DNA of 33,045 bases from a bacterium (GTDB taxonomy: Bacteria > Zhuqueibacterota > QNDG01 > DSAB01): the NCBI GenBank assembly GCA_011388275.1, contig DSAB01000077.1, forward strand, positions 1 to 33,045. The letters are read 5' to 3'. The first letter of the stretch is position 1, and every line of letters begins with the position of its first letter. The translations under genes were made by a program, and so were the position numbers. The notes below the pieces were generated by a model that was not told where the DNA came from, ran no database searches, and was given only the letters and a program-made list of their open reading frames with translations. Shown here piece after piece: positions 505 through 15,274 of the stretch.

Positions 505-560
505 CTTACGCTATGCGCTCCGCGCTTCGCATCTTTTCAATCCGAAATCCGCAATGCTTT
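505..560. repeat. Degenerate 7-bp tandem repeat array (copy 2)
   Basis: The heptads are CTTACGC, TATGCGC, TCCGCGC, TTCGCAT, CTTTTCA, ATCCGAA, ATCCGCA and ATGCTTT. It has the same composition and order of unit types as the array at 129-191 (GCGCTTT-type units first, then CCGCAAT-type units), and the same downstream CTTGAC-containing tail. The array ends only 23 bases before the -35 box of the promoter at 584. Confidence 0.65.
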
Positions 561-583
561 TCTCCACTTCATGTCGATTTTAC

Positions 584-612
584 TTGACATTGAATATTAT
601 TATTGGTATATT
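584..612 (+). promoter_or_regulatory. Sigma-70-type promoter for the secreted-peptide operon
   Basis: A perfect -35 box TTGACA (584-589) is separated by 17 bases from TATATT (607-612), one base off the consensus -10. Transcription would start near 619-620. It is the strongest promoter-like sequence I see in the window and points at the peptide operon, whose first start codon is about 340 bases downstream. Confidence 0.7.
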
Positions 613-618
613 TTCGCA

Positions 619-950
619 GGCATTGACGAATAAACTGGGTTGTTAGCCTGTTTCGGTCCTCGCGAAGCCTTCAGGCAGCGATTCAGCCGCAGACCCCGTG
701 ACACATTTCTTCAAATGGATCTCCCTTCGATCCCCGCACGGTGTGATCCTTCGACTCGGACACCTGTGCAGGAGAACCGGCGGGAGCGGGAAAGGGCCTG
801 TTAGAGACGAAGAGCTTTAACAGGTCCATCCCGCCCGCTGATTACAGAACATCATTTATGATACACAAACCAATGGTTTCGTTCAACGCCTTATGTGTTT
901 TCCCTCCGGCCGCAAACGAATGCCGGATCCCCTGAACCCTTTATCAGTAT
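619..950 (+). promoter_or_regulatory. Long structured 5' leader, possible riboregulator
   Basis: No convincing gene lies between the promoter and the first peptide. Several hairpins are visible: GCCTG (646-650) with CAGGC (672-676), with TTCG/CGAA pairing inside; GGATC (717-721) with GATCC (729-733); CCGTG (696-700) with CACGG (737-741) around it; and a large hairpin in which CCTGTTA (797-803) pairs with TAACAGG (818-824), extended by GCGGG/CCCGC. The CCTGTT at 647-652 could also pair with AACAGG at 819-824, so two alternative folds are possible. I do not recognise a known riboswitch class, and no T-run follows the last hairpin. The leader assignment is inference from promoter position and hairpins. 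Confidence 0.4.
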
Positions 951-961
951 GGAGGTGACCC

Positions 962-1204
962 ATGATACAGAAAAAACCGAAATTTCCGCGCTGGAGCGTT
1001 GTTTGGTTCCTTTTGTTTCTTCTCTTGCTGCAACTTCCTGCTTCGGCCGGAGAAGAGGCCGGCGTGAAGGACGAATGCCTGAAGGCTCTTCTGAAATGCG
1101 GCGGGACCACGCTTTTCACAGCCTTTGGGGGATGGATTCCGTTTCTGGTTTCTTCCACTTTCTGTCTGAACGGATATGCCTGGTGCATGATGTATTTTCA
1201 ATAA
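962..1204 (+). CDS. Secreted four-cysteine peptide 1 (unknown family)
   Basis: 80-residue precursor. The start is set by an excellent ribosome binding site, GGAGGTGA (951-958). Residues 1-29 form a signal peptide: basic start, long Leu/Phe core, PASA cleavage motif. That leaves a mature chain of about 51 residues beginning GEE. Four cysteines fall at 39, 46, 68 and 75, as two CX6C pairs; the second is CLNGYAWC followed by MMY. Cysteines seven apart sit on one face of a helix, so a disulfide-stapled two-helix hairpin is plausible (inference). The next gene is a clear paralogue. It is not a known bacteriocin, lipoprotein or toxin family that I can name. The beta-propeller and thioredoxin-like genes downstream suggest a partner and a disulfide-handling enzyme. 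I am confident it is a gene and ignorant of its function. Confidence 0.75.
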   Translation: MIQKKPKFPRWSVVWFLLFLLLLQLPASAGEEAGVKDECLKALLKCGGTTLFTAFGGWIPFLVSSTFCLNGYAWCMMYFQ

Positions 1205-1215
1205 AGGAGCATCAA

Positions 1216-1434
1216 ATGAAAACGATACACAAAGCGCTGATCGGTTTATTTGCCGCCGTCATGATCAGCGGCAGTGCGATTGCCGGTGAAGCGGATAATC
1301 TCGAGCGCTGCAACGCGGCGCTGAAAAGATGTCTGGCCTATCCCCCGCCGAGCACTTCAGTCATACTGGGTGAAACGGACGGATGGTTGTTTTGTTTCGC
1401 GGGTTATGCGTTCTGCATCTCCTACCTCATATAA
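1216..1434 (+). CDS. Secreted four-cysteine peptide 2, paralogue of the preceding gene
   Basis: 72-residue precursor starting 11 bases after the previous stop codon. Its AAGGAG site (1204-1209) overlaps that stop by one base. Residues 1-23 are a signal peptide ending in AIA, and the mature chain starts GEA and is about 49 residues. Cysteines at 32, 39, 60 and 67 repeat the CX6C...CX6C layout with a 20-residue spacer (21 in peptide 1). The second pair, CFAGYAFC followed by ISY, matches peptide 1 over C-x2-GYA-aromatic-C-x2-Y. The spacer differs, with a PPPS stretch instead of GGTT. Paralogy with a conserved cysteine frame and a diverged middle suggests a two-component or diversified peptide pair. 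The family is not recognised. Confidence 0.75.
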   Translation: MKTIHKALIGLFAAVMISGSAIAGEADNLERCNAALKRCLAYPPPSTSVILGETDGWLFCFAGYAFCISYLI

Positions 1435-1596
1435 AACATCGATTTCCGACGAAAATGTGTCGATGGAGAATCCAGGAATGATGCACGCAGCAGCACAACG
1501 TTTTATCATTGTAATGGATCCAAACCCATGCAAGTATGCAGACGGATCCGAAATCGTGCTGCCCGAAAAAACGGATTATTCTGATTGAAGAAAAAC

Positions 1597-1631
1597 AGCC
1601 GGCCGGAGTCTTCATGAATCTCCGGCCGGCT
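1597..1631. terminator. Perfect 12-bp stem-loop between peptides and propeller gene
   Basis: AGCCGGCCGGAG (1597-1608) and CTCCGGCCGGCT (1620-1631) pair perfectly around an 11-base loop. On the plus strand no T-run follows, so it may attenuate transcription or protect the 3' end of an abundant peptide mRNA. On the minus strand it is followed by GTTTTTC, which is a better intrinsic-terminator shape, but no minus-strand gene ends here. The region 1435-1671 otherwise holds no gene I can support. Confidence 0.5.
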
Positions 1632-1671
1632 CAAGCCAAAGCGCACACGATGGACTGGCAAGGAGAAACCC

Positions 1672-2661
1672 ATGTATCGAACGATTCGGCTTTTTATCAT
1701 CATCTGTTTATCGTGTTTCCTTTTCACCGGACCGGAAACCGCGGAATGCCGTGAGCCCTGGCGCATTCACACGGAAGAGATCTGGAATATCGGCGGCGAA
1801 GACTCCGATCTGATTATTCAATGGGTTGGTCTTGCCGTGGATCAGGAAGGTTGTATCTTTCTTACGGACCGTATGGACTATTCACTGAAAAAGTTTTCTC
1901 CCGACGGTGATCTGCTGGCCAGAACCGGCCGCAGGGGTCAGGGGCCGGACGAATTCCTGGATCCATGCCAGGTGTCTTGCCTGGGTGACCGTATTTATGT
2001 TTCGGATATACAGAAACCCGGTCTGAGCGTGTATGACAAACGGCTGAATTATCTCGGTCAAATCATGATTCCCCACGCGGTTTTTTCTTTACAGGTCATG
2101 GATTTCAACACGATCTGGATTTCCAGCATGATGCACACAGACCGGCCGATGATGATGGCCTTCGACAGTCTGGGCACACTGAAACAGTCCCTTTTCCCTC
2201 ACTTTTCCCTGAAAAAGAGTTTTATTGAAATGACATCTTTTCAATGGCAGGATCCGGACACAGTGCACGTTGTTTTCCACTGGTCGGGACGGACATGCCG
2301 CTTTCACCGCGATGGAAGACTGCTGTGGGAAAACCGTGAATTGGAAAAACGAAAACCGGAGACAACGGTCATCAATGATATTCAGGTGCCTGTCGGAATC
2401 GCCCTGAAAAACATTCAAACCGATCCTTACGGACATCTCTTTGTCCTGGGCGGCAGCGAGATGCCGAATCCGGGTCGGGATATATTTGTCATGGATAAAA
2501 ACGGGAAGATATGCGGTCAATTCACCCTTGAGGAATCGAGCCATATGATTCTCATCGATGAAAAGGGTTATCTCTATTCGCGGGGTGACATGGGCATGAG
2601 TCTGATTAAACACCGCCTTGATTATCCTGACGCCATGCTGCCCGCTGAAAGGCGGTATTAA
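1672..2661 (+). CDS. Secreted 6-bladed beta-propeller (NHL-like) protein
   Basis: 329 residues, start supported by AAGGAG seven bases upstream. The N-terminus (about residues 1-25) is a hydrophobic export signal. The rest shows propeller-blade repeats typical of the 6-bladed NHL/TolB-like group: units such as VDQEGCIFLTD, KKFSPDGDLL, IYVSDIQKPGLSVYD and ILIDEKGYLYS. It also has the diagnostic GRRGQGPDEF turn near residue 85. Such proteins act as extracytoplasmic binding scaffolds and no enzyme motif is visible. It lies 237 bases downstream of the paired cysteine peptides and is translationally coupled to the thioredoxin-like gene that follows. A role as receptor or chaperone for the peptides is inference. 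In Bacteroidetes, propeller proteins are likewise found beside small leader-bearing peptides (NVEALA type), but those lack the cysteine pattern seen here. Confidence 0.8.
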   Translation: MYRTIRLFIIICLSCFLFTGPETAECREPWRIHTEEIWNIGGEDSDLIIQWVGLAVDQEGCIFLTDRMDYSLKKFSPDGDLLARTGRRGQGPDEFLDPCQVSCLGDRIYVSDIQKPGLSVYDKRLNYLGQIMIPHAVFSLQVMDFNTIWISSMMHTDRPMMMAFDSLGTLKQSLFPHFSLKKSFIEMTSFQWQDPDTVHVVFHWSGRTCRFHRDGRLLWENRELEKRKPETTVINDIQVPVGIALKNIQTDPYGHLFVLGGSEMPNPGRDIFVMDKNGKICGQFTLEESSHMILIDEKGYLYSRGDMGMSLIKHRLDYPDAMLPAERRY

Positions 2662-3134
2662 TGGACTGCTGGTGGAAATTCTGGTGGCTGCTGACAATGT
2701 GCTGCACACTCCTCGCCGGACAGCCGAAAAAAACATCACGAAAATCGCTTCCGCCTGTCCGAACCGTTTGCGCCGTTCTGCTGCTTTCTTATTCGGATTA
2801 TCTGTGTCCGCTGTGCCTTCAGTCTTTCCTGCAAACAGCCGATTCCCTAAACTCCTGGCCCGGATTGCAGACATGGTGCGTCCTGATTGGTGATTCAGAA
2901 ACTTTTATGGGCATACCCGCTCAGATTGTTCGTGCGCAATTCAAAGGCTGGATAGCCGCATCGGGTTTGAATTTCCAGGCCCTGGTGGATGAAAAAGGAT
3001 TTTTAAATACGATGATCCGAGACGGACCTGTTCTTATTGTATTCAGCAAAGGAAGTTTCATCCGCCATTGGAGCCTGCCCCTGAGCCCGAATGATCTGAA
3101 AACAGTAAAAAAATTTATCAAACAGTCTGGCTGA
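2661..3134 (+). CDS. Membrane-anchored thioredoxin-like protein (CPLC)
   Basis: 157 residues. The start codon overlaps the propeller stop by one base (TAATG), so translation is probably coupled. A Trp/Leu-rich N-terminal segment (about residues 4-20) looks like a membrane anchor or uncleaved signal. A hydrophobic strand VCAVLLLSYSDYLCPLC leads into the active-site-like motif CPLC (residues 49-52), as in the thioredoxin/TlpA/AhpC fold. A later GPVLIVFSKG segment (around residue 120) fits the cis-proline strand, followed by a C-terminal helix. It is short and divergent, so a binding-only role is possible. The expected substrate is extracytoplasmic disulfides, and the four-cysteine peptides in the same operon are the obvious candidates (inference). 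Confidence in the fold is moderate to good. Confidence 0.7.
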   Translation: MDCWWKFWWLLTMCCTLLAGQPKKTSRKSLPPVRTVCAVLLLSYSDYLCPLCLQSFLQTADSLNSWPGLQTWCVLIGDSETFMGIPAQIVRAQFKGWIAASGLNFQALVDEKGFLNTMIRDGPVLIVFSKGSFIRHWSLPLSPNDLKTVKKFIKQSG

Positions 3135-3603
3135 TTTTCAGGCATGGTCCAACAAAAACCGCAAATAGCTGTTTAAAATTCTCGAAACAACGGGAAGAGA
3201 AAATCCACCGGCAGGCAGCGGGCAGCAACTCCCTCACAACCCAACAACCGCCCGATCGAACATGCAATACGGGTGAATCCAATGGCCGGGGCGGAATATT
3301 TTCGAAGGTCTGGATCGGGTTTCGGTCTGAAACGGGGCTCGGATCGAATGCGATAAACCGGCCTTCCGCGTGTTCCGCCCGGCTTTCTCGATCTGTTCCG
3401 CTAAAAACATGGGTTGACTTTCAGCGGATCAGTTTACAGCATCATCTCTGCACAAACACCCGAGCACCTGGATACCGGCCGGATGGGGGGGCTTGCCCCC
3501 CCGTTCTTCCCGTTGCAGCATCGAACCCGATCGATCTATGACGATAAAATACAGACCGGAAATCAGGATTATGAGCGGATCTCGACAATAGTTACATAAC
3601 GGG
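3135..3603. other. Gene-free gap with stem-loop structures
   Basis: No gene is supported here; short frames lack ribosome sites and family features. Visible structure: GCCGGGGCGGAA (3285-3296) pairs, with one bulged G, with TTCCGCCCGGC (3373-3383). A GTTTC/GAAAC hairpin lies inside that 99-base span. A separate 7-bp G/C stem, GGGGGGG-CTTG-CCCCCCC, lies at 3485-3502. The last could stall polymerase between the convergent peptide operon and symporter gene, but it has no T-run. Confidence 0.5.
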
Positions 3604-5073
3604 TTATCGATTATTTCTCTCCGGAACGTCTCCGCGCGGGATCAGAACCGTGACCAGAAAACCGACAAGACCCGCGGCAACGAAAGTCATGAATCGGGCC
3701 GTTATTTGCGCATCCATTCCGGAACCGATCCATATGATGGTGAAAACCATGCCGGTGATCATGGTGACCAGAGCCGCCGTTCCGTGAAACCGTTTCCAGA
3801 AAAGGGTATACAGGATTACCACAGAGAATGTCGAGCCGATGCCCGCCCAGACATAACCCACCAGTGTGTAAATAAGATCCGTGGGTGACAGATACGCTGC
3901 AGCCAGGGCGATGACTGCGAGAACAGCCGTAACCAGACGGGCGCGCCGGAGTCTGATCGTTTCACTTTCATCGAATCTTTTCGATCGACCCAGAAGATTC
4001 TCCGACAATTCCGTGGCCGAAAGAATCAGCAGGGAATCGGCCGTTGAGATCATGGCGGCAATGGCGCCTGTGATGAGCAGAGCGGCCAGAGCCGGTGGAA
4101 AGATGCGAAGCATGACGGCAGGCATCACATATTCAGGATCTTCCAGCCCCTGAGGCCCGAACAGGGCGATGCCGATCCAGCCCAGACACAGGGCTCCTCC
4201 ATAAGCGGCCAGCGTCCAGAGAATACCCACATTGCGCCCCTTTTTCGCCTGTTTGCCATCCCGTATGGCCATAAAACGCATACTGAGCTGCGGCTGCCCC
4301 CCCAGATAACCGAAAAACCACGAGAATCCTCCCATCACCGCCACTCCCGCCGCGAAACCCGAGGCGCCTTCGGTCAGAGAAGAATAAGCAGGTCCTGCTT
4401 GTCCGAGTGCCTGCGGAATGGAGGATGCGAACAATCCCGGTGTTCTGGCTATGAAAAGTATGCCGACTGCAGGGCCGACAACCAGGGCGATGATCATGAC
4501 AATAGCCTGAATTACATCCGTATAGACCACGCTGCGGAACCCGCCATAAACGGTATAAGGTACGATAACAAGGGCGGTGATGAGCATGCCCAGACGCGGA
4601 CCGATCCGGAAGAGAGTGTGCAGGGTTTTTCCTCCCCCAAGAAACTGGGCGCCGACATAAAAGAAAAAAAAGAAAACCAGGATCAGGCTTCCGACCGTGC
4701 GGATCGACTTCTCCGCGTCTCCGTGTTTCCTGGCAATATAATCGGTAAAACTGCCCGCATTCAGAGAATCGGCCTCATCACGAAGCCGCCACGCTATAGC
4801 CGCCCAGGCGGTGATGATCCCGGCCATGCATCCCAGGGCCGTCCAGACACCGGTCAGTCCCGAAGCATAGGCAAAACCGGGCAGGCCGAGCAGGGCCCAG
4901 GAAGACTCACCCGTCGCCCTTTCCGACAGCGCGGCCGCCCATCCGGGGAGGCTCCGTCCGGCGATGTTGAAGTCCGAACTGTTCTTGACTTTTCGCCCCT
5001 GGTACAGACCCCACAGAATGAGAAGGCCAAGATAGGCTGCCATGACGACAAGAATTTGTGTCCGGGTTTCCAT
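3604..5073 (-). CDS. Sodium:solute symporter (SSS/PutP-type)
   Basis: 489 residues with about 13 hydrophobic segments, the usual size for the SSS family (PutP, PanF, SglT relatives). Family hallmarks are the N-terminal FNIAGRSLPGWAAALS region (unwound first core helix), the following ATGESSWALLGLPG, and YGGFRSVVYTDVIQA in the middle. These transporters use the Na+ gradient to import sugars, amino acids, sialic acid or vitamins, and substrate cannot be read from sequence. The start has AGGAG six bases upstream. The gene lies 27 bases after the small Cys-rich gene and in the same direction as the sialidase-like lipoprotein and mannosidases. Import of a sugar released by those enzymes is a reasonable inference. 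No partner subunit is present. Confidence 0.88.
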   Translation of the reverse strand: METRTQILVVMAAYLGLLILWGLYQGRKVKNSSDFNIAGRSLPGWAAALSERATGESSWALLGLPGFAYASGLTGVWTALGCMAGIITAWAAIAWRLRDEADSLNAGSFTDYIARKHGDAEKSIRTVGSLILVFFFFFYVGAQFLGGGKTLHTLFRIGPRLGMLITALVIVPYTVYGGFRSVVYTDVIQAIVMIIALVVGPAVGILFIARTPGLFASSIPQALGQAGPAYSSLTEGASGFAAGVAVMGGFSWFFGYLGGQPQLSMRFMAIRDGKQAKKGRNVGILWTLAAYGGALCLGWIGIALFGPQGLEDPEYVMPAVMLRIFPPALAALLITGAIAAMISTADSLLILSATELSENLLGRSKRFDESETIRLRRARLVTAVLAVIALAAAYLSPTDLIYTLVGYVWAGIGSTFSVVILYTLFWKRFHGTAALVTMITGMVFTIIWIGSGMDAQITARFMTFVAAGLVGFLVTVLIPRGDVPERNNR

Positions 5074-5100
5074 GCAAATCTCCTAAGTCTTTTTTCACGG

Positions 5101-5322
5101 CTACCAGGTCGACTTGGGACGCCGCTTGCCGAACCGCAGCGGACAGGGCGCGTTCTTTGTAACATAAGACTCAAGCTTCTCACACCATACGGCGGAAAAG
5201 GTGCGGCAGCTTCCCGCCCCGTCAATATCCGCATCCCCGGGAAAAGAAGCGTGGGGACAGTGATAATCACAAAACAGAACATGAGAGGAAGTCACGCCTG
5301 CGTTGCCGTCGTCTTTATTCAT
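5101..5322 (-). CDS. Small cysteine-rich protein, unknown function
   Basis: 73 residues. Its start overlaps the stop of the DUF2156 gene in an ATGA arrangement, which supports it as a real coupled gene. There is no signal peptide. Five cysteines are arranged as CDYHC near residues 18-22, then GSC, VWC and APC. This looks like a small metal-binding or iron-sulfur-type cytoplasmic protein rather than a disulfide-rich secreted one (inference). The C-terminus is basic (RFGKRRPKS). I do not recognise a named family. The pairing with a DUF2156 protein, and the symporter 27 bases downstream, make an operon of three genes. Confidence 0.6.
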   Translation of the reverse strand: MNKDDGNAGVTSSHVLFCDYHCPHASFPGDADIDGAGSCRTFSAVWCEKLESYVTKNAPCPLRFGKRRPKSTW

Positions 5323-6233
5323 GATGGATTTCCCTCCCGGATTTCCTGAATCGAATACTTTTCCACCAGGCGAAAGGGAAAATAGGATTCTTTCGCCTTG
5401 CGAAGGCCGGGCTCACCGACGTCCTGTTCCCGGTTGATGAACGCGGTTTGGCTCCACGCGTGCTCGCAGAACTGCTGGTTCATTACGGTAAACATCTGCG
5501 GAATTTCCGGATCCGCTTTTTCAACATGAATCACGGCCGTATCCTCATTGAGCATCTCACCCAGGGAAAACGCGGCCACGGCTCCGGAAACGCGAACCAG
5601 CCCTCCCGTCAATTGCAGCGATTCAAAATTAAAGAGCGCCTTGTGAACCGCCTTGCACTCCGCTTTCATCACGGGATTCTCCCGACACTTTCGATGGTCA
5701 CACCATTTCTTCAGGGCTTTCATGCATTCCCTGATTTCACCGGCCGTTATCGGTTCATATGTAAATGACATTGTTCTTTGGATTTTATTGATATGGTTCC
5801 GTTTGGCATGGTAACGTCTTCCTTCCAGGGTCATCAGGTCTCGAGTCCGATACAGATAATCAAAATAATTCCGCACCTGTGATATTTCGAACGGCGCGCC
5901 GGAAAGCTCCCGGACCAGGCGTTCGTCGGCCCGCTCGATGCGCGGAACTTTTCCCCTCTTCTTCTGCCATTGGAAAAGATCGCCGACCAGGGAGGCGCGG
6001 TTATGATTCCCTACGGGAGGGAAAAAGAATTCTCGCTCGTTTTTCTGACTCAGAATGACAAGACAATCGTCCAGAAGACTCCACTTTAGCCCGAAATACG
6101 GCTGCCATATATACAAATTGGTAAATGTCAGTTCTGATGTTTCAGGTCTGTAACGGCTCAGACGGTCCTGAATAATCTCCCTGTCGCTCAGGCGAACGGG
6201 TTCGAAAACGGGAAAAACCGGAGGAGCGGTCAT
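5319..6233 (-). CDS. DUF2156 / phosphatidylglycerol lysyltransferase-like protein
   Basis: 304 residues from the chosen start at 6233, which has GAGG nine bases upstream; an in-frame ATG at 6248 has no ribosome site. The protein matches the COG4866/DUF2156 layout. An N-terminal half carries TFTNLYIWQPYFG. A GNAT-like C-terminal half carries LEGRRYHAKRNHINK, AAFSLGEML, and a closing GEPGLRKAKESYFPFR near residue 285. Relatives contain the aminoacyl-transfer domain of MprF/FemXAB-type enzymes that use aminoacyl-tRNA. The stand-alone form has no membrane domain and its substrate is unknown. It overlaps the small Cys-rich gene by four bases. It sits 42 bases downstream of the sialidase-like lipoprotein gene and is probably cotranscribed with it. 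Confidence 0.8.
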   Translation of the reverse strand: MTAPPVFPVFEPVRLSDREIIQDRLSRYRPETSELTFTNLYIWQPYFGLKWSLLDDCLVILSQKNEREFFFPPVGNHNRASLVGDLFQWQKKRGKVPRIERADERLVRELSGAPFEISQVRNYFDYLYRTRDLMTLEGRRYHAKRNHINKIQRTMSFTYEPITAGEIRECMKALKKWCDHRKCRENPVMKAECKAVHKALFNFESLQLTGGLVRVSGAVAAFSLGEMLNEDTAVIHVEKADPEIPQMFTVMNQQFCEHAWSQTAFINREQDVGEPGLRKAKESYFPFRLVEKYSIQEIREGNPS

Positions 6234-6275
6234 GAATAAAAACCTCATCGATCTGTTTTCGTTTGCAGGGCTCTC

Positions 6276-7640
6276 TTATTGGACGATCACTTCAACCGCA
6301 TCCGAAGCCGGACTCTCGCCTCCCCGGTTTTCCATCGGAGCGCCCCGCGTGGCCACGGCCGTGATCCGATAATAATACGTCGCACCGCCTTGAACGGATC
6401 TGTCCGTAAACCGGCTTTCAGTCGGCGAGGCGATCGCATTTCCGGTCCGGGGATATCCGCCCTGCGGATTAAAATCCGGTTCCATGCCGCGATAAACCAG
6501 ATAATAGACGGCTCCTTCCACGTGATTCCACCGAATCTGCACCCCTGTTCCTGCAAAGAAAGATGCGTGCACGCCGAAGGGAGCGTGAGGTCTTCCAACG
6601 ACAAAGGCGGTCGAGCGGATATAACTTTTTTGATCCGTCAGTGTCACGGTTTCTTCATAATAGACGGCATGGACCCTGTCACCGGTATCACCAATCAGAG
6701 ACGGATAGGCGCAGTCGCCTGCCGCCGACCAGATTTGGGTCTCCGCCTCCCAGGTAATTCCGTCGTTGTAGCTGATCGAGTAACTCACTCCTCGAGGCCA
6801 GAAATCCCTGTAGGCGCACACCATGATACCGTCCGGGGTGACCAGACAGCCCGGAGCCTGCCCCTGTATGGAGGTGGATGCCGGCGCGTTCCAGGACCGG
6901 CCGCCGTCAGAGCTCTGCACGCGATACAGATAGTCATCGGCACCCGCGGTTCGCATGAGACAGACGATCGATCCCGACGGAGAAAGGACGAAACAGGGCT
7001 CCTGAAAGTCGATCCGCTGACCCGGGTCCCTGGCTACGGTGACAATCTCCGTCCACGTGTCTCCGCCGTCCCGGGAAATAACCGCCATGGCTCTCGATTT
7101 CTCTCCGGCGTTGCCGCCGTATACGGGCATCAGGAGAGTTCCATCGGAATAAGTCAGTATTTTCGCCGACGTCGCAGACCACTCCACACCGGGCATGGTG
7201 ATTCTTCTCGGAGCCGTGAAAGATTTTCCGTTGTCGAAACTCCGCACCACAAAACAGCTCACAGCAGCCGGCGCTTTCCCCGGTTCGTCGTACCTGGACT
7301 GAAAGAAACTGATCAGAATCAATCCATCTTCCAGCTGAATCACGGAAGGATCCCGGCAATCCCATACGGAGTTGACAATGGTGTCGGGTTCGGACCACGT
7401 TTTTCCCTGATCCGTGGATACTGTGCGCATGATCACCCCGTCCGGAGAGACATGGCCGCTTCCCTGGCGGTATACGACCATCCACTCTCCGGTTTTCAGA
7501 CGGACGATATCGGGAAAAGCCGCATGAGTCGAAGATTCCACCACAACGCGGTGGCGCATCTCTCCGTATCTGAGGCTTTCGATCTTCGCGCATCCGGAAA
7601 TCAGCCCGATCAGAGCGAATAAAACGATGCTGCGTTTCAT
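6276..7640 (-). CDS. Sialidase-fold lipoprotein with C-terminal fibronectin III domain
   Basis: 454 residues, start preceded by AGGAGG seven bases away. The N-terminus is a lipoprotein signal with ISGC at residues 14-17, so it is probably anchored outside the cytoplasm. At least five Asp-box turns are visible (STDQGKTW, SFDNGKSF, SRDGGDTW, SSDGGRSW, SYNDGITW), marking a six-bladed sialidase/BNR propeller over about residues 30-345. Residues 350-454 form a fibronectin type III domain with the ATYYYRITAVA strand. Members either hydrolyse sialosides or use the fold for other glycans. I see an early arginine-containing strand (DIVRLKTG) but cannot confirm a full arginine triad. Together with the GH92 and GH38 genes upstream it suggests glycoprotein glycan degradation. 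Confidence 0.8.
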   Translation of the reverse strand: MKRSIVLFALIGLISGCAKIESLRYGEMRHRVVVESSTHAAFPDIVRLKTGEWMVVYRQGSGHVSPDGVIMRTVSTDQGKTWSEPDTIVNSVWDCRDPSVIQLEDGLILISFFQSRYDEPGKAPAAVSCFVVRSFDNGKSFTAPRRITMPGVEWSATSAKILTYSDGTLLMPVYGGNAGEKSRAMAVISRDGGDTWTEIVTVARDPGQRIDFQEPCFVLSPSGSIVCLMRTAGADDYLYRVQSSDGGRSWNAPASTSIQGQAPGCLVTPDGIMVCAYRDFWPRGVSYSISYNDGITWEAETQIWSAAGDCAYPSLIGDTGDRVHAVYYEETVTLTDQKSYIRSTAFVVGRPHAPFGVHASFFAGTGVQIRWNHVEGAVYYLVYRGMEPDFNPQGGYPRTGNAIASPTESRFTDRSVQGGATYYYRITAVATRGAPMENRGGESPASDAVEVIVQ

Positions 7641-7711
7641 GAAACATCCTCCTGCCGTAGATTTCGGCTTTGAGTGTTGATGACAAAAATGTTTATATCT
7701 CCCAAACGCCC

Positions 7712-8041
7712 TCAGAATCCGTTTTCACCGGATTGGGCCATATTCATCAGGACCATGCCTGTCAGTATGATGATCCCCCCCAGCACCAGCCCGATTCCAA
7801 GCACGATTCCGACGAGGGTCAGCCAGTCACGGGCGTTCGATGTGCTCCGCCTTCGAACCCAGCTCATGATGATGGTGTCGAAAAAGAGCTTTCCCGTGAA
7901 TATGAGAAACAGGGTGATACCGGCAACCACCCGAACCGCGTCCCACCGGGTCGCGATCCGCTGAAGCGGCCACAACAGCCAGATCACTACTCCCCATTTC
8001 AGAGTTTCGATGAGTATGCCGACCCATTCGCGCTTTTTCAA
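7712..8041 (-). CDS. Small membrane protein, unknown
   Basis: 109 residues, read from a TTG codon; AGGA lies six bases upstream and no in-frame ATG or GTG precedes it before a stop. Three hydrophobic stretches are visible: about residues 10-26 (WGVVIWLLWPL), 37-58, and 73-100, the last glycine- and isoleucine-rich. A basic RRRS loop lies before the last. This fits a small integral membrane protein with no recognisable domain. It follows yraN by 42 bases in the same direction. The coding potential is supported by the hydrophobic pattern and position, not by family membership. Confidence 0.55.
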   Translation of the reverse strand: MKKREWVGILIETLKWGVVIWLLWPLQRIATRWDAVRVVAGITLFLIFTGKLFFDTIIMSWVRRRSTSNARDWLTLVGIVLGIGLVLGGIIILTGMVLMNMAQSGENGF

Positions 8042-8083
8042 TCCGATTCCTGTAATCTTTAACCCATACTCTCAAAAACTTTT

Positions 8084-8443
8084 TCAAAGCCGGAAAGCAT
8101 CCTTGAAATGGGTTATCTCGACCCGGCTTCCCCACTCGATGGCGAGCACGTCGAAGCGGCAGTCCGGTATCTCTGCATTCCGTCTTTCCAGATAATACAC
8201 CGCGGCCCTTCCCAGCCTGCGTTGTTTAGAGGGTGTAACCCGCTCTTCAGGATGACCGTACTCGTCACTCATCGAGGCTTTCACCTCTACGAAGACCAGT
8301 TCGGAACCGTCTGCGGCCACGATGTCGATCTCCCCGAAAGGCGTGTTGTAATTCCGGCACAGGATATTATAACCCTTTTGGGTCAGATATTGGACGGCCG
8401 TTCTTTCTCCCAGCCGCCCTTTCCTCTGATGTCCTCCTCCCAT
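8084..8443 (-). CDS. yraN: YraN/UPF0102 family nuclease-like protein
   Basis: 119 residues from an ATG at 8443 with a perfect AGGAGG six bases upstream; an earlier in-frame ATG (8473) has no such site. The family is a small PD-(D/E)XK endonuclease-like fold. The signature residues are present: [12 protein letters not shown] at the N-terminus, NYNTPFGEIDIVAADG (catalytic Glu and Asp), and LVFVEVKAS (Glu-x-Lys), then RRLGRAAVYYL. In many bacteria it is beside rnhB, as here. Its first 77 bases overlap the end of rnhB in another frame, a larger overlap than usual. The cellular role is still poorly defined; a function in DNA processing or recombination is assumed from the fold. Confidence 0.9.
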   Translation of the reverse strand: MGGGHQRKGRLGERTAVQYLTQKGYNILCRNYNTPFGEIDIVAADGSELVFVEVKASMSDEYGHPEERVTPSKQRRLGRAAVYYLERRNAEIPDCRFDVLAIEWGSRVEITHFKDAFRL

Positions 8444-9101
8444 CTTTTTCCTCCTTTCTCCACCCGCGGACATGAAATGTTTTTCGATGTATTGGACAAA
8501 ACCCGTGAATACGAATCATTTCCACATGATCCCGGGTTCCATATCCCTTGTGCCGGCCGAATCCGTATGTCGGATAGAGGCGGTCGCATTCCAGCATGAG
8601 CCGGTCGCGGGTGACTTTCGCGACAATGGACGCCGCCGCAATCGAAAAACAGAGGCGATCACCGCCGCAAACAGCCGTCTGAACAAAATGGAAATCCGGC
8701 ACGGACTTTCCGTCGATCAGCACATGGTCGGGCTTCAGTGAAAGCCCCTCCACCGCTCTTGTCATGGCCCGGTGAGTCGCCCGCAGAATATTGATTCGGT
8801 CGATCTCATCATGATCCGCAATTCCTATGGAAACCGCCAGGGCGGTTTGATGAATCCGTTCAAAGAGCGTCTCGCGTCGGCTTGGGGTCAGAGCCTTGGA
8901 ATCGCGGACCCCCTCGAGCTTCGTGTGCGAAGGGAAAATCACGGCCGCCGCCACCACCGGTCCCGCAAGCGGGCCCCGGCCCGCTTCATCCACACCGGCC
9001 ACCAGAAAACCCCGCTGCCAGAGAGGCGTTTCAAACCCGGTGTGAGGAAGGTCCTTATCTAAATTCCGGCTGTTCGTACACTCCCCGTTTCCTGCATTCA
9101 T
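8367..9101 (-). CDS. rnhB: Ribonuclease HII
   Basis: 244 residues. It removes ribonucleotides and RNA primers from DNA-RNA hybrids. The catalytic start motif [13 protein letters not shown] lies near residue 37, with [11 protein letters not shown] following. The later acidic positions fall in VLIDGKSVP and [12 protein letters not shown]. The core normally ends at HRKTF; here about 35 further residues, basic and low in hydrophobicity, extend over the yraN start, so the tail may be a by-product of that overlap. The start has GAGG eight bases upstream and overlaps the stop of the GH38 gene (ATGA). A housekeeping gene coupled to a glycosidase gene is unusual. Confidence 0.95.
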
Positions 9102-12100
9102 CGTATAACCTCGATTAAACGAACCCCGAAAGGTGGAACGGCCCGTTCAATAAAACCTTCTCCCCTTCCATAATAAATATCTCCCCGGGCATTAAAAAGC
9201 CGGACCTGCCAGCCGTCCTTTCCTTCCAGGGGCCGGATCGAAGTAATTAGAATTCCCTCGGGCAGATCCAGGCCTTTCAGGGCCGGATCCGGCTCATAGA
9301 ACAAGAGCAGCAGAGGGGCACCGGATTCCATGCCTCTCTTTTTGGCCTCACGCAGGACAAAGGGTCCGTGAGGAAACAGTCGAAAACGAACCGTTACGGG
9401 ACCCGGCTGGGCGGCCCGGTAATTGGTTTCCCAGTAATTGTTCATGACATAGGCAAAAAGCCGTTTCCGGTCATCCGTTTTTTTAAGCCAGCCCACGGCG
9501 ACCGGATCGGCGGTGATGCGTCCGATCTGCACCATGGGCACATCCGGAGTCACCCAGGTGACTCCTCTTGTCTCGTCGGATATATCCACCCATCTCTGAG
9601 GGGCAAAATAATTCTTGCAGGAACCCGGAAGCTGTTCCGCGTCGGGACGGAACACACTCCAGGCTCCATCGATACGCACTTCGCCCTCAGGAAGATTGAA
9701 AGGAAATTCAAAATAGACGGCTTCAGGGTCGAACACTTCCTTTTTATATATCGTATTGATCATTTCCACACGATTCAGACCGTTTATTATCCGGATCTCA
9801 CGAACCAGTGAATCGCAACCGGGCGCCTCCGATATCATTTTAACCGAACGGATCAGCGGTCCCGATTCCCCGGCACGCATTCGAACCGGTTCCGATGTCC
9901 GGACGTTTGACGGGTCTCTTCCTTTCACATACCGGTACACATTCCAGCCGGATCCTTTCTCGTCCACCAGTGTTCCGTATTTCCGATGAGCCGCTTTGTT
10001 AACGCCTCCCGAAACCGGATCCAGATCGAGGGAAAAGCTGCCCGCTGAAAGGCTGAAATCCATCGAGCTTGTTTCGGTTTCTTCCTGCTCTCCCGGCCGG
10101 ACTCTGTAAAGGCGTGCCGCCAGAGCCGGAACCCGGGCAATAAAAACCAGAGAACCGTCTCTCAGACGCTGGGTAGACACGGAATTGCCTTCATCATCCA
10201 CCACCCGGTCTCCAATACGGACCAGGCCCGCATCGAGAATCACGACATCTTCCCGGGGCCAGGAAAGCGTGTTCATCACCCAGACATGCTCTCCGTCAAA
10301 AGGGGATCCGGCGGCCGCTTCTTCCATAAGCCGGAAGGACTCCTCCCGGGCGGTTTCGGCGAAAGACTTCTTGATCTCCCACTGCTGAAGGGTAAAAGGC
10401 GAATGCGGTTCGCTGATGCTGTTCCAGGATCCCCATGTGTGTTCACTGTAGAGAAAAACCTGACGCCAGGCCCGTCCGAACCGCTCACGGGGATAATCCG
10501 AGGGTTTGAGAAGAGACCAGAGAATTTCGGCCTGAACCAGCCGTTCGGCAGCCTGTCTGTTCATGGCCGTTTCACGGGCCGAAGAAGCGGCTCCGTCTTC
10601 CCAGTACCCGGTAAAATCTCCCCTGAACGCGGGAAGAGTATGACCGTACTTCTCCTCGAACACGGAAAAGGCCTCGTCCACCGTGGAAATGATCATGCGA
10701 GGCGACAGAAATTTCTCGTTCCACTCGCTGACCTGGTTTGAGAGCATGGGATCCGGAGGACCGTTGTCCGAACCGATGTTGTAACGGAAAACACCGATAT
10801 CGTAGGGATACCCTTCCGCGTCCAGTTCTCTCAGATAATCGAGAATGGCTTTCTCATGAAGCCGCTTCTGAATACGATGAAATCCCAGTCTGCTGTGAAA
10901 CCAGGAGTACCCCTTTCCCGCGACCCAGCACAGTATTTTCTCTTCACCGGAAGGAGAGATCCAGTAAAAGGGCCGGTCCGCCCAGGTTTCCAAAACATGA
11001 CCGATGCGGTGTCCCGTATTGGTCCCGATGGAAAGATACCGGATGCCCCTTTGAGCCAAAGCCGTCACCAGCCCCCAGCTGGTTCCGGGAATATCCGTGA
11101 TCATGGCGGAAATCAGGGGAACCCCGCAAAGACGGGAGATCTCCACCGCCGGATCGAGCTGACGGAACAGCTCTTCGGACCGGCACAGGCCGGTGAGAAG
11201 ATTCCCGTACAGGGCGTTCAGCCCGATCGATCCGTCCCGAATGGCCTGAATGAAACGATCACGCTTTTTTGGATCCGCACGGCGCAAATAACTGTCCACG
11301 GCCCACATGACCTCCACGTTCCATTTAAACCGGGACTCGGCCGGAAAATCGCGACTGGCGTCGGCCAGGCCCATGGCCGTCTCCAGATGGGACCATTGCA
11401 TGGCTTCCACTTCGGACTGTATGTGGGTGTATCCGATATCCACATGAGAGTGATGCAGGAGGAAGAGGGTCTTTTCCTTTACCGGCATCACTCGTACGGT
11501 ATCGTGCACAGTCCTCGATCCGGGCAGGCGCACACGAACCGGAACCCAGGACTCCTGCCGGACTCTGGGAATGGCTATCTGAACTTCATTATAGCCGATA
11601 TTCAGAGGGGCCTTCACCGTGCCGCCCCCGGCGCGTATCTCGGCATGTCCGGAAGATTCGAAATGCAGTATTCTTACCCGCAAGGGCTGCCGTTCCCCCC
11701 GCCTGAGAATCGCGGGTTCTGAGTCTATAGTCACGTCCCTGTCGAAACCGTTTCGAAACGTCATATACCAGGTACGGCTGCCAGCCGATTCTCCGGCCAC
11801 GGCGAGTCGAAGTCTTCGTCCCGGAGTCAGCATCGTATTCGGGACTTCCAGAAAAGCGTACCCCATGAAATCGCCGTATTTGTCGATGAGCGTGCTTCGA
11901 AAGCGCAGCGACACGCCATGAAGCCCCTTCACCGTCCAGTCGGGACGGGTGGTATCCTCCGGAGTCCGAAAGGTCAAAACAGGCTGTTCATCGATAAAAA
12001 GCCGGAAATTATGCGCATCGGAATTCACATCGATACCGAAAGCCCACACAAACACGGCCGCATCGCCTCGCCGGTCATGCGGAATTGCCCCGGTCTCCCA

Positions 12101-12301
12101 CTCGATGGTCCGGCTTCGGTCCAGTGAACGAACGAGGAGAGAGGTGGTTTGATCCTGATATGGAGAATGGTAGGTCAGTATTTCTCCGGCTATATCCTTT
12201 TCATAGCCCCGAAGCCATTGAACCGCTCCCGCCCGATTCCAGCATCCCGCGTACAGAAGCAGCATTCCGAACATGAAAAACCGCGGTGACATCCTTTTCA
12301 T
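9098..12301 (-). CDS. Exported GH38-family alpha-mannosidase-like protein
   Basis: 1067 residues. The N-terminal hydrophobic segment with YAGC (about residues 16-20) gives export, possibly as a lipoprotein. A beta-sandwich region precedes the catalytic domain. The GH38 metal site motif HHSHVDIGYTH lies near residue 282. A conserved ITDIPGTSWG near residue 400 is the likely nucleophile-aspartate region, and GSDNGPPDP contributes a later part of the pocket. The C-terminal half holds the GH38 beta-sandwich domains. GH38 enzymes are Zn- or Ca-dependent retaining alpha-mannosidases, and this is a divergent branch, so linkage specificity is open. It lies 18 bases after the GH92 gene, implying stepwise trimming of the same mannose-rich glycan, and overlaps rnhB by four bases. 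Confidence 0.85.
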   Translation of the reverse strand: MKRMSPRFFMFGMLLLYAGCWNRAGAVQWLRGYEKDIAGEILTYHSPYQDQTTSLLVRSLDRSRTIEWETGAIPHDRRGDAAVFVWAFGIDVNSDAHNFRLFIDEQPVLTFRTPEDTTRPDWTVKGLHGVSLRFRSTLIDKYGDFMGYAFLEVPNTMLTPGRRLRLAVAGESAGSRTWYMTFRNGFDRDVTIDSEPAILRRGERQPLRVRILHFESSGHAEIRAGGGTVKAPLNIGYNEVQIAIPRVRQESWVPVRVRLPGSRTVHDTVRVMPVKEKTLFLLHHSHVDIGYTHIQSEVEAMQWSHLETAMGLADASRDFPAESRFKWNVEVMWAVDSYLRRADPKKRDRFIQAIRDGSIGLNALYGNLLTGLCRSEELFRQLDPAVEISRLCGVPLISAMITDIPGTSWGLVTALAQRGIRYLSIGTNTGHRIGHVLETWADRPFYWISPSGEEKILCWVAGKGYSWFHSRLGFHRIQKRLHEKAILDYLRELDAEGYPYDIGVFRYNIGSDNGPPDPMLSNQVSEWNEKFLSPRMIISTVDEAFSVFEEKYGHTLPAFRGDFTGYWEDGAASSARETAMNRQAAERLVQAEILWSLLKPSDYPRERFGRAWRQVFLYSEHTWGSWNSISEPHSPFTLQQWEIKKSFAETAREESFRLMEEAAAGSPFDGEHVWVMNTLSWPREDVVILDAGLVRIGDRVVDDEGNSVSTQRLRDGSLVFIARVPALAARLYRVRPGEQEETETSSMDFSLSAGSFSLDLDPVSGGVNKAAHRKYGTLVDEKGSGWNVYRYVKGRDPSNVRTSEPVRMRAGESGPLIRSVKMISEAPGCDSLVREIRIINGLNRVEMINTIYKKEVFDPEAVYFEFPFNLPEGEVRIDGAWSVFRPDAEQLPGSCKNYFAPQRWVDISDETRGVTWVTPDVPMVQIGRITADPVAVGWLKKTDDRKRLFAYVMNNYWETNYRAAQPGPVTVRFRLFPHGPFVLREAKKRGMESGAPLLLLFYEPDPALKGLDLPEGILITSIRPLEGKDGWQVRLFNARGDIYYGRGEGFIERAVPPFGVRLIEVIR

Positions 12302-12319
12302 TGGTCCTCTCCGTATCCT

Positions 12320-15274
12320 CTATTCGACAAGGATCTCGTCCACGAAAATCCAGGCCTTGCCCCCGGCTCCCACATGCCATTCCGGCACCACGGACCGGTT
12401 ATGCGCGTGAACGCGTATATAACGAACGGACACGTTGGGCAATTCCACCATAAAATCCCCGGAAATGCCTCCCCACGCCGTGTCCGCCACGGTATTGACC
12501 ACCCGGCCCGCTCTGGAAAAATGCACGCCGTCACGGGACACCTCTATGACGACCGAATCGGGCATCCAGATCCACGATCCCGCGTCCTGAAGAAATCCGG
12601 CGCCCGCCCCCCTCACTTCCTGCACGGATCCCAGATCGACCACGGCCTGAAAATCGATTCCCTCATAGCCCTGCCACGCACCGTTTTTAAAATTGTTCCC
12701 GCCGCGGATCAAATCGATGAGGGCCTCGTCTCCACCCCCGGTATATTGCGGACTGTACGGGGTTTCGATCTCGACGCGGCGATGGGGCGGATGCCGTGTG
12801 TATTCCGCGGTCACCACGGCGCTCCACCCGTGCACGGGATGACGGGCCCGCGCCCTGACAAGAGTGTGGTCGTAAATCCAGAACGGCGCGGCGGCCTGTG
12901 CGTCCTGATGACCGGGCTCGCGTCCATCCAGAGTGTAATACACCACCGCATCGTCCATGAGGCCGGACACCGTGACTCGCATGGAATCGCTGAAGGTCCG
13001 CGCGTCGGCCTGAATGACCGGAACAGGCACCAGAACCGGTTCGTCGATCGACGAGCGCGGCCGCCAGGAAGGCGCCCAATTTCGTTTGTCCGGACGCCGG
13101 CTCATCGTGAACTCGAGATCCCCGCCCGCCATAATCGCTTCATGGGCCAGCACCAGAGAAGAATGATTCTTCTGATTCAGCTTCATGGACCGGACATAGG
13201 GCCGGTTTCGACTGTTCCCGGGAGCCTGAATCGTGAAAGTTTTTCCATTGTCCAGATGCAAAACCGCCTTCTCAAACCAGGGCGAGCCCAGGACATATTC
13301 CGGTTTTCCCGGTTGAACGGGATAGAAACCCAGGGCGCTGAGAACCAGCCACGCGCTCATCTGCCCGCAGTCTTCATTACCGCATAAACCTTCAGGCGAA
13401 TCATCGTAAAGCGTGTTCATGATTTGACGGACGCGCTTCTGCGTCTTCCATGGCCGGCCTGCATAAGCATAGAGGTAGGCCATGTGATGGCTGGGTTCAT
13501 TGCCATGGGCGTACTGCCCGATCAGACCGGTGATGTCGGCCTGATCCCGGCCCGTGGTCTCGGAGATTTCGTCGAAGAGGGCGTCGAGTTTCCGGATAAA
13601 AGCCTCCTCCCCTCCCATCAGCGCCATCAGCCCCTCCACATCCTGAGGCGCGAAAAATGAATACTGCCAGGCGTTGGCTTCGGTATAGTTGAAACTGACT
13701 TCTCGCGGGTCGAAAGGACTCAGCCAGCCGCCGTTCAGCCGGGGGCGCATGAAGCCTGTGGACGCGTCATACAGATTCTTGTAAGACTGGGCCCACAGCC
13801 TGTATCTACGGGCCGCGTCCTCCAAACCGAGATCTTCGGCCATTCTGGCGATGCACCAGTCGTCATAAGCATATTCCAGGGTCTTGGACACGGATTCCGA
13901 TTCCGCGTCCATGGAGATAAAACCCTGTTCTTTAAACATGTCCAGCCCCAGATGATCGAGTTCGGCGCTGTGCATCATGGCTTCCAACGCCAGTGGCGTG
14001 TCAAAATCGCGCAATCCCTTAAAATAGGCGTCCGCAATTACGGAAACGGCATGGTATCCGATCATACAGCCCGTGTAATTGGCCGCCAGCTCCCACATGG
14101 GAAGCCGTCCGCCCTGCTTATAGTGGATCAGAAGAGTCCGGATAAAATCAAGAGTTCGGTCCGGCTCCAGAATCGTCAGAAGAGGATGCGCCGCCCGAAA
14201 CGTGTCCCACAGCGAGAATACCGTGTAATGCGTATGCCGGTCCGACTTGTGAACGGCCTGGTCCATACCCCGGTAGCGGCCGTCCACATCCATATACAGA
14301 TTCGGATTGAGCAGGGCGTGATACAACGCGGTATAAAAGACCCGGAACTGAGAGGGTGTGCCTCCGGACACCCGTATCCGGCCCAGAGACCGGGCCCAGA
14401 TTTCCCGGGCCTGGTCATGGACCCGGTCAAAATCCCAGTGCGGGATCTCTGCATCCAGGTTCCGCCTCGCCCCCTCTTCATCCACCGCGGAAAGCCCAAC
14501 CTTGACCAGCAGCTCCGAGTCCGTCCCGTCAAAAGTCATGACGGATTTGACATGCCTGCCCCTGAGATCCACTCCCGGTACCGGCATATCGTGATCATAC
14601 AGACCCAGCGTCTGAAAGGGTCTGGAAAAACGGATCACGAAAAAGACCCATTGATCGCGCGCCCAGGAGGATGAGCGCCTGTATCCGGCCAGTTCCCGGT
14701 CGTTCACCTTTCGAATAAAAGAATCCAGAACCGGGTCGCGGTGAGTCAGATCACAGATAACATGGGCAGACTTTCCGCCCGGAAATCGTATCCTGTGAAA
14801 TCCCGCCCGCTGCGTGACCGTCAACTCCACTTCGATTCCGCTTTTCATACGCACACCGTAATGTCCGGGTGAAGCGGTCTCCTCTTTATGGCTGAAGAAC
14901 TCGCCGTATCCCGAACCGGGTGAGTCCGATCCGTTGTTCAGCCTGACCGGACCGGTCATGGGCATAAGAAGAATGTCGGCGTAATCGGGAATTCCCGTTC
15001 CCGACAGATGGGTATGGCTGAATCCGTAGATGACAGAATCGGAATAATGGTATCCGGAACAGCCGTCCCATCCGGTCAGGCGGGTGTCGGGACTCAGCTG
15101 AACCATGCCAAACGGAAGGCTGGGGCCCGGATAGGTATGGCCGTGAGCGCCCGTTCCGATGAAGGGATCGACCCAGTCCACGGGTTCATGAACTATTTCC
15201 ACTTCCCTGTGGCAGGCTGTAAACAGCACTGGAAGTAAAAGCCAGCCCCTCCACAATGCAAATCGTTTATTCAT
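12320..15274 (-). CDS. GH92 alpha-mannosidase lipoprotein with C-terminal F5/8-type domain
   Basis: 984 residues. The leader has LFTAC near residues 17-21, a probable lipoprotein cleavage site. GH92 hallmarks: VDPFIGTGAHGHTYPG (about residue 36), FSHTHLSGTG, EYAYDDWCIA, GNEPSHHMAYLY (about residue 590), and GNEDCGQMSAW, which carries the Glu expected to be the general acid. GH92 enzymes are Ca-dependent inverting exo-alpha-mannosidases acting on N-glycans and yeast mannan. After the catalytic part, a chitobiase-type beta-sandwich (YYTLDGREPG, about residue 780) and a discoidin/F5-8 type carbohydrate-binding domain (about 840-984) follow. The start has GGAG five bases upstream. It leads a string with GH38 directly downstream. 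Confidence 0.93.
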   Translation of the reverse strand: MNKRFALWRGWLLLPVLFTACHREVEIVHEPVDWVDPFIGTGAHGHTYPGPSLPFGMVQLSPDTRLTGWDGCSGYHYSDSVIYGFSHTHLSGTGIPDYADILLMPMTGPVRLNNGSDSPGSGYGEFFSHKEETASPGHYGVRMKSGIEVELTVTQRAGFHRIRFPGGKSAHVICDLTHRDPVLDSFIRKVNDRELAGYRRSSSWARDQWVFFVIRFSRPFQTLGLYDHDMPVPGVDLRGRHVKSVMTFDGTDSELLVKVGLSAVDEEGARRNLDAEIPHWDFDRVHDQAREIWARSLGRIRVSGGTPSQFRVFYTALYHALLNPNLYMDVDGRYRGMDQAVHKSDRHTHYTVFSLWDTFRAAHPLLTILEPDRTLDFIRTLLIHYKQGGRLPMWELAANYTGCMIGYHAVSVIADAYFKGLRDFDTPLALEAMMHSAELDHLGLDMFKEQGFISMDAESESVSKTLEYAYDDWCIARMAEDLGLEDAARRYRLWAQSYKNLYDASTGFMRPRLNGGWLSPFDPREVSFNYTEANAWQYSFFAPQDVEGLMALMGGEEAFIRKLDALFDEISETTGRDQADITGLIGQYAHGNEPSHHMAYLYAYAGRPWKTQKRVRQIMNTLYDDSPEGLCGNEDCGQMSAWLVLSALGFYPVQPGKPEYVLGSPWFEKAVLHLDNGKTFTIQAPGNSRNRPYVRSMKLNQKNHSSLVLAHEAIMAGGDLEFTMSRRPDKRNWAPSWRPRSSIDEPVLVPVPVIQADARTFSDSMRVTVSGLMDDAVVYYTLDGREPGHQDAQAAAPFWIYDHTLVRARARHPVHGWSAVVTAEYTRHPPHRRVEIETPYSPQYTGGGDEALIDLIRGGNNFKNGAWQGYEGIDFQAVVDLGSVQEVRGAGAGFLQDAGSWIWMPDSVVIEVSRDGVHFSRAGRVVNTVADTAWGGISGDFMVELPNVSVRYIRVHAHNRSVVPEWHVGAGGKAWIFVDEILVE

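Follow-up and report, generated by a model that had tools for sequence, protein, structure and literature searches.

Tandem exported peptides with two CX6C motifs in a conserved four-gene operon of Zhuqueibacterota: a candidate cell-envelope peptide system

In contig DSAB01000077.1 of a bacterium of the phylum Zhuqueibacterota (assembly GCA_011388275.1), two small open reading frames lie in tandem on the forward strand of the stretch analysed here (33,045 nucleotides, hereafter called the window). The first encodes peptide A (962-1204, 80 aa), with the cysteine arrangement CX6C-X21-CX6C, and the second peptide B (1216-1434, 72 aa), with the arrangement CX6C-X20-CX6C; 11 bases separate the two. 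On this strand, the motifs read CLKALLKC (1076-1099) and CLNGYAWC (1163-1186) in peptide A, and CNAALKRC (1309-1332) and CFAGYAFC (1393-1416) in peptide B. The cysteines at residues 39/46/68/75 of A and 32/39/60/67 of B, from which the initial annotation started, match the open reading frames exactly, and the common end C-x2-GYA-[FW]-C-x2-Y that it described is present in both peptides (CLNGYAWCMMYF and CFAGYAFCISYL). Both chains possess a basic start, a hydrophobic N-terminal stretch and a plausible signal-peptidase site, with cleavage predicted (reading by eye) after ASA29 in A and AIA23 in B, so that each mature chain would comprise about 50 residues. Their proposed secretion or export is thus supported by signal-peptide-like N-termini and, in addition, by co-encoded exported partners.

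The ribosome binding sites of both genes had been described as exceptionally strong. This holds for peptide A, the Shine-Dalgarno sequence of which (GGAGGTGA, -15.0 kcal/mol) is the strongest among the 25 genes of the window, but the site of peptide B (AAAGGAG, -9.8 kcal/mol) is good but ordinary and, as it ranks only 8th among these genes, the description has to be restricted to peptide A. A candidate sigma-70-type promoter (TTGACA-17-TATATT) is located at 584-612 on the forward strand, about 350 bases 5' of peptide A, with 11 of the 12 consensus bases and a TG preceding the second hexamer; since promoter-like sites in this region are about as numerous as in shuffled sequence, this site is only suggestive. 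Between peptide B and the next gene, which encodes a propeller protein, a stable G+C-rich hairpin of 12 bp, without a T run, is found at 1597-1631 (forward strand). The intergenic stretch containing it folds better than shuffled sequences (z = -3.1), and the hairpin is a possible mRNA processing or attenuation element; no Rfam element was detected in the window. Furthermore, GACCATAGAC-like repeats in both orientations are clustered at 287-424, which holds 8 of the 9 matches in the window compared to 0.14 expected, and contig C13 has a similar stretch at its end (L131 10345-10542).

Peptides A and B belong to a family of ten members, which always occur as tandem pairs and are spread over four genomes of a single order, at five loci in total. 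Besides the window, one pair each is carried by the genomes G004 and G005 and two pairs by G009. A single-sequence search among the relatives mostly returned chance matches, and two adjacent ones in G004 exposed a second tandem pair; a profile built from four, and later from ten, peptides found the pairs of G005 and G009. G004 is the public metagenome-assembled genome Zod_Metabat.86, judging by its name originating from Zodletone spring, a site described in PMC9040765. In a profile search of the phylum (82 genomes), the ten peptides were retrieved with E 4e-27 to 3e-15 and, beyond these, nothing better than E = 0.002; given this gap, the family appears, within the set searched, to be limited to one order, in which four genomes carry it. 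The match at E 0.002 (G030:C316) was discarded, as a propeller was not found beside it.

The initial annotation had made its case dependent on homologues sharing the cysteines, and all four are kept in 10/10 peptides, together with one invariant glycine. The first motif reads C-x2-[AGM]-[hydrophobic]-x2-C and the second C-x2-G-[YW]-x-[FW]-C. Because eight further peptides elsewhere retain the four cysteines and the glycine, the pattern goes beyond chance. The near-identical mid-spacing that had also been pointed out is real in the window (21 and 20 residues), but the distance between the second and third cysteine varies from 13 to 29 residues across the family, so that it is no fixed feature. 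As the open reading frames are short and no database family covers them, one could suspect chance open reading frames or an alignment artefact; this is refuted by the ten homologues, their invariant cysteines and the conserved gene order, and its probability is negligible.

At all five loci the genes are arranged on one strand in the order A, B, an exported six-bladed propeller and a small exported C-x-x-C protein. The propeller encoded in the window (1672-2661, forward strand, 329 aa) is of the NHL/DUF5128 beta-propeller type: it matches PF17170 with E 5.4e-7 and, at 29.5 bits compared to a curated cut-off of 22.9, belongs to DUF5128, and a two-sequence profile matches solved NHL propellers with E 4e-22. 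It possesses 31% identity to the orthologue adjoining the sister peptides and, in a propeller search, the five peptide-linked propellers ranked exactly at the top (E 2e-198 to 4e-72, the best relatives starting at 2e-181), the next hit having E 2e-31. The fourth gene (2661-3134, forward strand) starts within the propeller stop codon (TAATG) and encodes an exported protein of 157 aa with the motif CPLC, which is CPAC in one orthologue and CSLC in that of G009:C11. This protein is probably thioredoxin-like, judging from weak similarity. No Pfam family is matched directly by the window protein itself, one orthologue matches Redoxin (E 1.4e-3), an hhalign comparison with the thioredoxin-like proteins of sister modules gives a probability of 71% (E 3.6e-5), and the PDB yields a weak match (E 0.035); the presence of unambiguous AhpC-TSA thioredoxins in sister modules was counted towards the assignment as well. 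A gene for MauE is located beside two of the five peptide loci, both in G009 (PF07291, 5.6e-17 and 3.2e-6), and is absent from the other three, the window operon included. Beside one of the G009 peptide loci, MauE is fused to a rhodanese domain; such MauE-rhodanese fusions are present at L065 6605-7522 (Pfam) and L107 3844-4704 (sequence reading). Two of the five peptide loci have an AraC-type regulator at their 5' side in the same direction (L063 10417-10896 and L064 5887-6252).

The conserved four-gene set in related genomes points to an undescribed cell-envelope peptide system. The explanation we prefer, to which we assign a probability of roughly 0.45, is a four-gene envelope operon in which the propeller serves as the binding partner of peptides that the C-x-x-C protein, elsewhere together with MauE, has oxidised. 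The operon would yield a pair of small exported peptides in the cell envelope, each with two disulfides that are plausibly nested (C1-C4, C2-C3) in a helical hairpin. The exported C-x-x-C protein, assisted by membrane MauE at two of the five loci, would make or isomerise these disulfides, and the exported propeller would bind the folded peptides as a scaffold or as a receptor. Such a system may serve signalling, antagonism, adhesion or redox work. Points that tell against the scheme are the weakness of the thioredoxin similarity, CSLC in place of CPxC in the G009:C11 orthologue, the three loci without MauE and the low helix propensity of the second CX6C arm.

With respect to the peptides themselves, the two CX6C motifs most likely form two disulfides. 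Of the helical hairpin put forward in the initial annotation, a helix is well supported in the first CX6C arm only: there, helix propensity is high and the mean hydrophobicity over the ten sequences has its power at 90-100 degrees. No amphipathic periodicity and a low helix propensity are seen in the second arm (C-x-x-G-[YW]-x-[FW]-C), although a helix would place its invariant positions 0, 3, 4 and 7 on a common face. A hairpin is a reasonable idea and may plausibly be adopted by the peptides. Plant alpha-hairpinins (CX3C-Xn-CX3C, PMC7191063) and mitochondrial twin CX9C (CHCH) proteins (PMC12114033) likewise carry an equal cysteine pair on each of two arms, and both are disulfide-stapled helical hairpins; we rejected membership of either group, as the spacing is CX6C in 10/10 peptides, the lineage is another one and no sequence match was obtained. 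As small exported peptides they also resemble NVEALA (PF14055) of Bacteroides. NVEALA genes are often found near genes for six-bladed propeller proteins. This assignment was rejected too, since PF14055 gave no match to any of the ten peptides or in the genome to which the window belongs, with a positive Bacteroides ihuae control. Searches of solved structures gave no match for the peptides, and a phage search none for peptide A. A hit of one peptide to Ammonium_transp (2.2e-4), the best among scattered single-member matches, was dismissed as hydrophobic-segment noise.

Four invariant cysteines and a co-encoded exported thiol protein could also be reconciled with binding of Zn, Fe-S, haem or the like as a metal or cofactor, the C-x-x-C protein then reducing the cysteines or delivering the cofactor, and the relative from Zodletone spring likely has an anoxic lifestyle, which would suit this role. 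Cysteine ligands are usually spaced as CxxC or CxxCH, which makes CX6C an unusual ligand spacing, and in the sister modules the cysteines are arranged quite differently. Moreover, MauE has been connected with the formation of disulfides in methylamine dehydrogenase, the product of the mau system (PMC7794033). Taken together, these points leave metal or cofactor binding a low probability.

Another possibility is that the operon encodes a secreted two-peptide antagonist, in which A and B jointly attack competitor membranes, A by way of a hydrophobic Gly/Ala-rich centre, and the propeller or other genes provide self-protection. Two unlike peptides are indeed kept together at 5/5 loci, and A peptides have a hydrophobic centre rich in Gly and Ala (Gly+Ala 0.24-0.62), unlike most B peptides (0.00-0.24). 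On the other hand, the average identity among A peptides (33%) and among B peptides (28%) is hardly above that between A and B (29%), values too close to tell separate orthologous A and B lineages apart. The N-terminus is Sec-like, Pfam, NCBIfam and PHROGs contain no convincing family match for the peptides, and none of a double-glycine leader, an ABC exporter or a small immunity membrane protein occurs in the operon, which makes an antagonist unlikely. For the same reasons, namely a Sec-type N-terminus and an operon in which neither a double-glycine leader nor an ABC exporter or immunity gene was seen, the peptides were not classified as class IIb two-peptide bacteriocins, with which they share the tandem of two small exported peptides.

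The preferred scheme of oxidised, propeller-bound peptides would be loosely like that of methylamine dehydrogenase, in which a propeller and a small disulfide-rich subunit are produced together with MauE and MauD. The cluster for this enzyme encodes the propeller MauB, the small disulfide-rich subunit MauA, MauE and MauD, and the small subunit contains the TTQ tryptophans and six disulfides. The window operon and its relatives are similar in that an exported propeller, a small exported cysteine-rich chain and a probably thioredoxin-like C-x-x-C protein are combined, with MauE at some loci. They differ in having a six-bladed NHL/DUF5128 propeller, two peptides and no catalytic or electron-transfer genes, and the peptides have four cysteines and lack the conserved Trp pair for TTQ. 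Membership of the mau system was consequently rejected, as the TTQ residues are absent, the propeller is different and MauE is not encoded in the window operon.

In the phylum, genes for propellers, cysteine-rich peptides, thioredoxins and MauE are repeatedly encountered together. Propellers often adjoin other cysteine-rich small exported peptides, unrelated in sequence, and many of these modules contain a thioredoxin and/or MauE (several at L107, and further ones at L098, L099, L102, L104, L105, L175, L176, L178, L180 and L182). When propellers were fetched by propeller score only and the four seed loci were left out, a cysteine-rich exported peptide (at least 4 cysteines, same strand, within 1.2 kb) was present near 5 of 25 propellers compared to 2 of the 98 other genes used as reference (p = 0.004, Fisher test). 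A larger count (16/62 propellers compared to 5/221 other genes, p = 4e-8) is biased, because it includes loci picked for their peptides. In addition, 12 MauE hits are located at most 2 kb from a propeller hit, where a rough estimate based on genome sizes expects fewer than one; among plasmid relatives, one distant propeller and no MauE were found. The window's own genome carries a second module on the reverse strand of L130 (G000:C70, 4-2382), consisting of MauE, an AhpC-TSA thioredoxin, a propeller and a cysteine-rich exported peptide of 70 aa. A variant on the reverse strand of L174 (G005:C25, 368-3649) combines MauE with a peptide of 50 aa that contains CDDCVCGC, a radical SAM protein (PF04055, 4e-18) and a propeller of the DUF5128 type.

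The RiPP-like gene order of L174, a sister module from the same order with the radical SAM protein between MauE and the propeller, would fit the view that the peptides are RiPP precursors, with the conserved Tyr/Trp and Cys being crosslinked and the operon acting as a maturation cluster. Clusters of MauE (and MauD) with cysteine-rich precursors in Streptomyces have been proposed as candidate RiPP families (PMC7794033), and these share with the present loci the combination of MauE and a co-encoded small cysteine-rich precursor. The Streptomyces precursors, however, contain at least 8 cysteines (PMC7794033), whereas here four are present in fixed CX6C pairs and a propeller is added. Moreover, the window operon has no modifying enzyme, the peptides possess conserved Sec-type signals instead of a leader and core, and the Tyr is replaced by Trp in one member; all this makes a RiPP origin rather improbable.

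From the recurrence of propeller/peptide/MauE/thioredoxin modules across the phylum, the twin-CX6C operon would be one branch, confined to one order, of a wider peptide/propeller/thiol-oxidase architecture. We tentatively propose, with less confidence than for the operon itself, that this architecture represents an undescribed envelope class in which dedicated pairs of thioredoxin and MauE oxidise diverse exported, cysteine-stapled peptides, and partner six-bladed propellers either display or sense them. The operon context is more informative than the cysteine pattern of the peptides, and the main value of the locus lies in a conserved four-gene module within a recurrent but functionally blank architecture. 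It provides a concrete, testable module for the pairing of DUF5128-type propellers with small cysteine-rich exported peptides: since the family is unusually tidy, with two peptides, fixed cysteines and a C-x-x-C protein encoded alongside them, four genes suffice for testing the disulfide pattern, the oxidase and the binding to the propeller. If the proposed scheme is true, peptide oxidation of the MauE/MauD type would reach beyond methylamine dehydrogenase and the peptides would represent a new stapled-peptide scaffold.

The L130 module adjoins two RND-type efflux genes, and the propellers in L100, L101 and L132 are likewise located beside RND genes. In L102 (G009:C53), about eight propeller genes lie on one strand (515-13100) behind one cysteine-rich exported peptide (13302-13535).
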